DNA of 64,000 bases from Panulirus ornatus. Taxonomy: Eukaryota > Arthropoda > Malacostraca > Decapoda > Palinuridae. Below, one piece after another: positions 51,429 through 52,996 of the stretch (position 1 is the first letter of the stretch; every line of letters begins with the position of its first letter). Position numbers and translations under genes: made by a program. The notes beneath the pieces were generated by a model, which saw only the letters and a list, made by a program, of their open reading frames with translations, was not told the DNA's origin and did not search any database. The DNA lies in the NCBI RefSeq assembly GCF_036320965.1, contig NC_092228.1, positions 13,070,307 to 13,134,306 of the forward strand, read 5' to 3'.

Positions 51429-52309
51429 CTCATGGTGAGGTGCCTGAGGATTGGCGGAATGCGTGCATAGTGCCATTGTACAAAGGCAAAGGGGATAAGA
51501 GTGAGTGCTCAAATTACAGAGGTATAAGTTTGTTGAGTATTCCTGGCAAATTATATGGGAGGGTATTGATTGGGAGGGTGAAGGCATGTACAGAGCATCA
51601 GATTGGGGAAGAGCAGTGTGGTTTCAGAAGTGGTAGAGGATGTGTGGATCAGGTGTTTGCTTTGAAGAATGTATGTGAGAAATACTTAGAAAAGCAAATG
51701 GATTTGTATGTAGCATTTATGGATCTGGAGAAGGCATATGATAGAGTTGATAGAGATGCTCTGTGGAAGGTATTAAGAATATATGGTGTGGGAGGAAAGT
51801 TGTTAGAAGCAGTGAAAAGTTTTTATCGAGGATGTAAGGCATGTGTACGTGTAGGAAGAGAGGAAAGTGATTGGTTCTCAGTGAATGTAGGTTTGCGGCA
51901 GGGGTGTGTGATGTCTCCATGGTTGTTTAATTTGTTTATGGATGGGGTTGTTAGGGAGGTAAATGCAAGAGTTTTGGAAAGAGGGGCAAGTATGAAGTCT
52001 GTTGGGGATGAGAGAGCTTGGGAAGTGAGTCAGTTGTTGTTCGCTGATGATACAGCGCTGGTGGCTGATTCATGTGAGAAACTGCAGAAGCTGGTGACTG
52101 AGTTTGGTAAAGTGTGTGAAAGAAGAAAGTTAAGAGTAAATGTGAATAAGAGCAAGGTTATTAGGTACAGTAGGGTTGAGGGTCAAGTCAATTGGGAGGT
52201 AAGTTTGAATGGAGAAAAACTGGAGGAAGTAAAGTGTTTTAATTATCTGGGAGTGGATCTGGCAGCGGATGGAACCGTGGAGGCGGAGGTGGGTCATAGG
52301 GTGGGGTAG
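51425..52309 (+). pseudogene. LINE reverse transcriptase ORF, second part (294 codons)
   Basis: Continues the RT in the shifted frame: [51 protein letters not shown] (first catalytic Asp), [19 protein letters not shown] and [11 protein letters not shown] (catalytic FADD). It stops at TAG 52307, created by G-to-T in a G-rich stretch. Downstream RT thumb and C-terminal domain are present but closed. Confidence 0.88.
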
Positions 52310-52996
52310 GGGGCGGAGGTTCTGGGAGCCTTGGGGAGTGTGTGGAGGTCGAGAACATTGTCTCGGAAAGCAAAGGTGGGTGTGTTTGAGGGAATGGTGG
52401 TTCCAACAATGTTGTATGGTTGCGGGGCGTGGGCTGTAGATGGAGTTGTGCGCAGGAGGATGGATGTGCTGGAGGTGGGATGTTTGGGGACAGTGTGTGG
52501 TGTGGGGTGGTTTGATCGAGTGGGTGACGTGGGGGTGAGAGGGATGTGTGGAAATAGGGAGAGCGTGGTTGGGAGAGCAGAGGAGGGTATTTTGAGGTGG
52601 TTTGGGCACATGGAGAGAGTGAGTGAGGAGGGATTGACCAAGAGGATGTATGTGTCGGAGATGGAGGGAGCGAGGAGGGGTGGGAGACCGGATTGGGGGT
52701 GGAAGGATGGAGTGAGGGGGATTTTGTGTGATCGGAGCCTGAACATGCAGGAGGGTGAGGGGAGGGCAAGGAGTGGAGTGGATTGGATCGGTGTGGTGTG
52801 CCGGGGTTGGCGTGCTGTCGGTGGATTGAATCAGGGCGTGTGAGGAGTCTGGGGTAAACCATGGAAAGCTGTGTAGGTATGTATATTTGCGTGTGTGGAC
52901 GTATGTATATACATGTGTATGGCGGTGGGTTGGGCCATTTCTTTCGTCTGTTTCCTTGCGCTACCTCGCAAACGCGGCAGACAGCGACAAAGCAAA

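Follow-up and report, generated by a model that had tools for sequence, protein, structure and literature searches.

A sharply bounded block of A-to-G hypermutation in a LINE of Panulirus ornatus, a probable genomic trace of ADAR-type RNA editing

Overview

The window analysed here is a stretch of 64,000 nucleotides of the Panulirus ornatus genome (contig NC_092228.1, positions 13,070,307 to 13,134,306), and it contains a LINE copy in which one block, at window positions 52277 to 52844, departs from its relatives almost entirely by A-to-G changes on the sense strand of the element. Detailed comparison confirms that the block is real. Such hypermutation also reaches wider than first supposed: further copies are affected across the genome, among them a class changed on the antisense strand. 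The block was, with a probability that we put at about 0.88, left in the genome by ADAR-type A-to-I editing, in which a LINE RNA would have been paired, edited and reverse-transcribed into the genome. The features referred to are as follows.

49690..53005, plus strand: LINE copy carrying the block (5′ end judged by eye to lie near 49690; its 3′ tail enters (AT)n)
49818..51428, plus strand: endonuclease frame of this LINE (Exo_endo_phos, PF03372, E = 2e-7)
51425..52309, plus strand: reverse-transcriptase frame of this LINE (RVT_1, PF00078, E = 5e-39)
52277..52844, plus strand (LINE sense strand): A-to-G-hypermutated block, defined by its changes, their order by preceding base and its likelihood edges
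52845..52974, plus strand: unedited 3′ part of the block-carrying copy
24900..26810, plus strand: sister copy, the ruler for alignment, with an open reverse-transcriptase frame of 573 aa
55741..56869, minus strand: inverted family copy about 3 kb downstream, matching the sister copy at 89 %
5171..6031, minus strand: example of a copy whose similarity to the sister copy ends at 26710-26714 (blastn)

The hypermutated block and the element that carries it

Eighteen copies from the window were aligned with MAFFT and a consensus was derived from 14 of them, with three diverged copies and the edited one itself excluded. Measured against this consensus the block holds 67 A-to-G changes, four G-to-A changes and three transversions, close to the roughly 65 A-to-G and five other changes that had been counted by eye in a sequence-only reading of the window; none of its 126 Ts reads C and none of its 49 Cs reads T. 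When the consensus is built instead from genome copies (loci on the minus strand were left out of a first scoring and taken into the second), the number of A-to-G changes is 68. Only 2 of 349 As are changed in the upstream flank (51081-52272) and none of 23 in the downstream flank (52846-52974), and the differences between block and flanks (Fisher, P = 1e-35) and between A-to-G and T-to-C inside the block (P = 2e-19) are both pronounced. A change-point likelihood, mapped onto the window copy, gives 52277-52844 as the best block, with support for the 5′ edge extending from 52252 to 52277 and a sharp 3′ edge between 52844 and 52856. The earlier statement that the preceding 2.5 kb are nearly unchanged relative to the sister copy can refer to about 1.2 kb only, as similarity to that copy begins at 24916. 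Further 5′, beyond the reach of the sister copy, no A-to-G change was seen back to about 50.7 kb in comparison with three to five other copies, none of the copies compared covering the segment from 49.7 to 50.7 kb.

The predicted frames of the LINE include both an endonuclease and a reverse-transcriptase domain, which identifies the element as a non-LTR retrotransposon with an AP-type endonuclease. The stop codon that ends the reverse-transcriptase frame at 52309 contains a G-to-T change and not an A-to-G change. A blastn comparison of the window with the sister copy returned 24 rows longer than 100 bases, the sister copy itself included. The block-carrying copy is flanked by 102-nt inverted-repeat arms (49503-49604 and 53148-53249) that are 97 % complementary; a similar 3′ flank was seen by eye at locus L035, and the arms may be a separate repeat. 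The conserved 3′ tail of the LINE is also found alone as short repeats, in the window at 4823-4931, 17618-17723, 43422-43529, 44187-44296 and 54117-54235, and the 5′ end occurs alone in the same manner at loci L071, L072, L074 and L075; these solitary LINE ends are perhaps derived short elements. Elsewhere in the window, the minus strand of 59764-60486 carries an open frame matching GT10 fucosyltransferases (PF00852, E = 2e-37; PF17039, E = 3e-10), which is probably an exon of a host gene.

Recurrence through the genome

The species' own assembly (2.65 Gb) was searched with the block, and 40 copies were scored of 14,597 candidates. Among these 40, the next-best copy after the block itself has 90 % identity, and all 39 others (11 loci and 28 further fetched copies) are A-to-G-hypermutated, mostly with different edges. 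Since the 39 were found through their likeness to an edited block, they show recurrence and not frequency. A-to-G changes make up 97 of 99 changes in L032, 85 of 86 in L035, 141 of 145 in L036 and 150 of 160 in L063; L039 is diverged, with 83 of its 197 changes A-to-G, yet has a clear block with 59 edits in 163 As. L004 is an additional edited copy, found among 29 non-self loci that had been fetched with the unedited sister sequence. Across the 28 fetched copies the likelihood of an A-to-G block ranges from 47 to 547, and that of a T-to-C, G-to-A or C-to-T block is at most 6.

For pooled counts we used 40 copies, namely L004, the window copy and 38 of the others, L050 being left out. As read G at 3097 of 8681 positions inside the blocks and 49 of 3710 outside, and the in-block rates of other transitions are low (T-to-C, 28/7148; C-to-T, 30/2481; G-to-A, 76/11,244). 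The 40 blocks are 78 to 1190 bases long (median 748), with 13 to 64 % of their As edited (median 36 %); L043 to L070 were taken as 1701-base stretches, so that some 5′ edges are cut. An all-against-all scan for runs of changes found many runs of at least seven, of which the block and L004 are supported by many partners. The other runs mainly mirror these two as reciprocal G-to-A or C-to-T changes or lie in AT-rich repeats.

A count of a 35-base word of the LINE that contains four T-preceded As was made across the genome. The intact word occurs 85,266 times in the 2.65 Gb; the family is very large and little diverged. With all four As changed to G the word occurs 50 times (22 on the plus and 28 on the minus strand), with four T-to-C changes five times and with four G-to-A changes not at all. 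Chance would be expected to yield about 0.00002 words of the A-to-G kind at singleton rates, or 0.001 if one of the sites were a common polymorphism. The 50 words in about 85,000 cover strongly edited words only and include close pairs that may be duplicates (e.g. on C22, C55 and C19); extrapolated at an editing level of 0.64 for such sites, they correspond to some 295 copies edited over the word, or 0.35 % of the family. Cytidine deaminase, or APOBEC-type editing, was also considered as a source of the block and rejected, with no C-to-T and only four G-to-A changes in the block and no match to the G-to-A word genome-wide; the sequence-only reading had already judged this enzyme not to be responsible, and the low likelihoods of C-to-T and G-to-A blocks in the 28 fetched copies bear it out.

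Preference for the neighbouring base

When the As of the window block are sorted by the preceding base, 13 of 17 are edited after T, 36 of 58 after A, 4 of 19 after C and 14 of 78 after G (G against the rest, P = 3e-7). The 40 pooled copies give 763/1189, 1476/2892, 306/951 and 552/3649 respectively, and in both sets the order T > A > C > G is that of ADAR. As preceded by G, which the sequence-only reading called spared, are disfavoured but still edited at a low rate. At the following base there is no bias in the window block (P = 0.74) and the pooled copies are flat (.34 to.37); of the two neighbours whose preference the sequence-only reading proposed to examine, only the preceding one shows any. 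A depletion of G upstream of hyper-edited sites is described across Metazoa, and invertebrate hyper-editing is described with a preference for a downstream A (PMC5625713).

The low rate after G may in part reflect ordinary mutation, since singleton A-to-G changes in 61 ordinary copies are also lowest after G (T, 12/3207; A, 16/6142; C, 8/2392; G, 9/7502; all rates below 0.4 %). A general ADAR-like A-to-G bias in ordinary copies was considered and rejected, as it appeared only when L004 and shared variants were included; singleton A-to-G changes (45/19,243) are as frequent as T-to-C changes (47/17,663; P = 0.60). Among 12 edited copies (66 pairs), edited sites are shared beyond what the preceding base accounts for (mean z 2.1), which implies either some dependence between copies or further preferences of the sites.

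Copies edited on the antisense strand

The five matches to the word with four T-to-C changes, which had been intended as a control, are themselves hypermutated copies (L071 to L075), with T-to-C shares of 51/66, 78/81, 41/47, 43/49 and 34/36 respectively. Read on the antisense strand they are edited in the ADAR order, by 5′ base 75 of 97 after T, 63 of 135 after A, 101 of 310 after C and 8 of 53 after G (sums over the five). All five are internal fragments that end short of the LINE 3′ end, and on the LINE 5′ side the edited strand of four passes directly into AT repeats. In L074 an inverted, antisense-edited segment is joined head-on to an unedited sense 3′ end.

These fragments are probably the other strand of sense-antisense duplexes, probably primed from a neighbouring (AU)n. 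Antisense RNA from 5′-truncated copies lying in (AT)n would have been edited and then primed through its own (AU)n, which resembles the tail of the LINE itself. The priming step is less well indicated at L072, where AT repeats lie on both sides of the fragment.

Order of editing and insertion

Several edited copies fit editing first and insertion second. L004 is 5′-truncated, lies between the 9-bp repeats of a target-site duplication and is edited from its first bases, and in L038 the two ends match over 12 bases; in most copies target-site duplications are unreadable because the copies sit in (AT)n. Of 27 insertions taken to be uncut, 16 are edited from a point no more than 22 nt inside their 5′ end; two of these 16 (L055 and L060) begin within 20 bases of the end of their 1701-base stretch. 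In L067 the 3′ part is edited (79/168) and adjoins an inverted part with one A-to-G change in five changes, an arrangement like that of twin priming, and unedited copies share 3.6-kb loci with edited ones (L032, L037, L038 and L040).

Edges and possible duplex partners

In the numbering of the sister copy, where 26680 corresponds to 52844 in the window copy, the 3′ edges of the 40 blocks fall at or before 26636 in eight cases, at 26670-26692 in 12, at 26711 in two and at or beyond 26745 in 18. In seven of the 24 window blastn rows the likeness to the sister copy breaks off at 26710-26714, and with a partner of this kind a duplex would stop shortly beyond the block. The two main edge groups (26670-26692, and 26745 and beyond) would be consistent with antisense partners of two kinds, one whose similarity ends at 26710-26714 and one having the same 3′ tail. 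Editing in place, by pairing with the inverted copy nearest to the block (55741..56869), was rejected, since the range over which that copy could pair does not agree with the block edges, and no duplex partner of the window block was found.

Origin of the blocks

The proposal of the sequence-only reading, that a LINE RNA was A-to-I edited while double-stranded and then reverse-transcribed, is supported by the mutation spectrum, by the order at the preceding base, by the failure to find a G-rich subfamily and by the recurrence through the genome. A sense LINE RNA would probably have paired with antisense LINE RNA over some 570-600 nt, the paired stretch would have been deaminated by an ADAR-type enzyme, and the edited RNA is likely to have entered the genome by target-primed reverse transcription. 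That the enzyme was ADAR, that the duplex was made of RNAs transcribed from copies in opposite orientation and that the RNA was edited before it was inserted we infer from the sequences.

The alternative that survives best, although improbable, is adenine deamination at the level of DNA, by ADAR or another deaminase acting on the cDNA of the RNA:DNA hybrid at insertion or on the inserted DNA. ADAR does act on RNA:DNA hybrids, and L074 would fit a deaminated cDNA strand in twin priming. Editing of first-strand cDNA, however, predicts T-to-C changes in ordinary insertions extending to the 3′ end of the LINE, whereas 37 of the 40 A-to-G copies reach that end (many of them 5′-truncated) and none of the five T-to-C copies does so in one piece; unedited copies also adjoin edited ones. 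As only five T-to-C copies were seen, a small share of such deamination is possible.

Reverse-transcriptase error, in the form of bursts of C incorporated opposite A, for instance with unbalanced nucleotide pools, would also give strand-specific A-to-G blocks with edges. Next-nucleotide effects should favour such errors at As preceded by G, since a second C is then the base to be incorporated next, and here those As are the least changed; the grouping of 3′ edges is not predicted either, and we regard this explanation as very unlikely.

We assign an equally small chance to descent from one G-rich subfamily or from a copied edited master. It would account for L038, L042, L056, L062 and L064, which have 12 edited sites and three ordinary markers in common as well as a block at about 26209-26745, and for L049 and L050, which represent one duplicated event. 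Against it, no other copy among the 40 scored of 14,597 candidates is more than 90 % identical to the window block, and block edges and edited sites vary widely. Even the group of five differs at many other sites and by inspection fits no single tree; it is possible that one source was edited repeatedly or that an edited source was copied again. A G-rich subfamily whose changes are of mixed types and independent of the neighbouring base, which the sequence-only reading had named as the competing outcome, was looked for among the scored copies and did not appear, the 39 others being A-to-G-hypermutated. A sequencing or assembly artefact is least credible of all, because the A-to-G changes follow the sense of the LINE on both assembly strands (16 plus and 24 minus among the 40 scored copies), have an enzyme-like neighbour order and lie between ordinary flanks.

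Implications

A broader proposition, for and against which we find the odds even, is that this genome holds a large fossil record of several hundred LINE insertions made from ADAR-edited RNA of both duplex strands, that the LINE machinery also copies edited antisense RNA from chance (AU)n, and that some edited sources have been copied again. If this is true, ADAR would act in the germline as a barrier that damages LINE RNA but does not keep it from inserting. Edited LINE insertions can be counted and compared here. If editing of paired RNA before insertion is the correct reading, DNA by itself would suffice to read germline double-stranded RNA, its strand and extent and the neighbour preference of the editor, and LINE RNA would be shown to remain insertable after editing. 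No description of ADAR-edited LINE insertions in a genome was recognized in a literature search that was thin on subscription journals.

Comparison with known systems

ADAR hyper-editing of double-stranded RNA derived from repeats has been seen in RNA reads in Metazoa (PMC5625713), and the present blocks resemble the pattern described there in their dense A-to-G clusters of a single type within repeats and in the depletion of a 5′ G. They differ in that the changes are read in an assembled genome and have no downstream A preference. The avian retroviruses RAV-1 and ALV are cited for A-to-G hyperediting (in PMC8586724), a case that is similar in that the RNA of a retroelement is edited and the changes are read after reverse transcription; unlike these retroviruses, the element here is of the non-LTR kind, has many genomic insertions and includes edited antisense RNA. 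APOBEC editing of retrotransposons, as reported in PMC2873906, PMC3880073 and PMC5072296, likewise leaves clusters of a single mismatch type, made by a deaminase, in genomic retrotransposons. Its base change is G-to-A, so that the change and the substrate are different here, and the control word with four G-to-A changes is absent from the P. ornatus genome.
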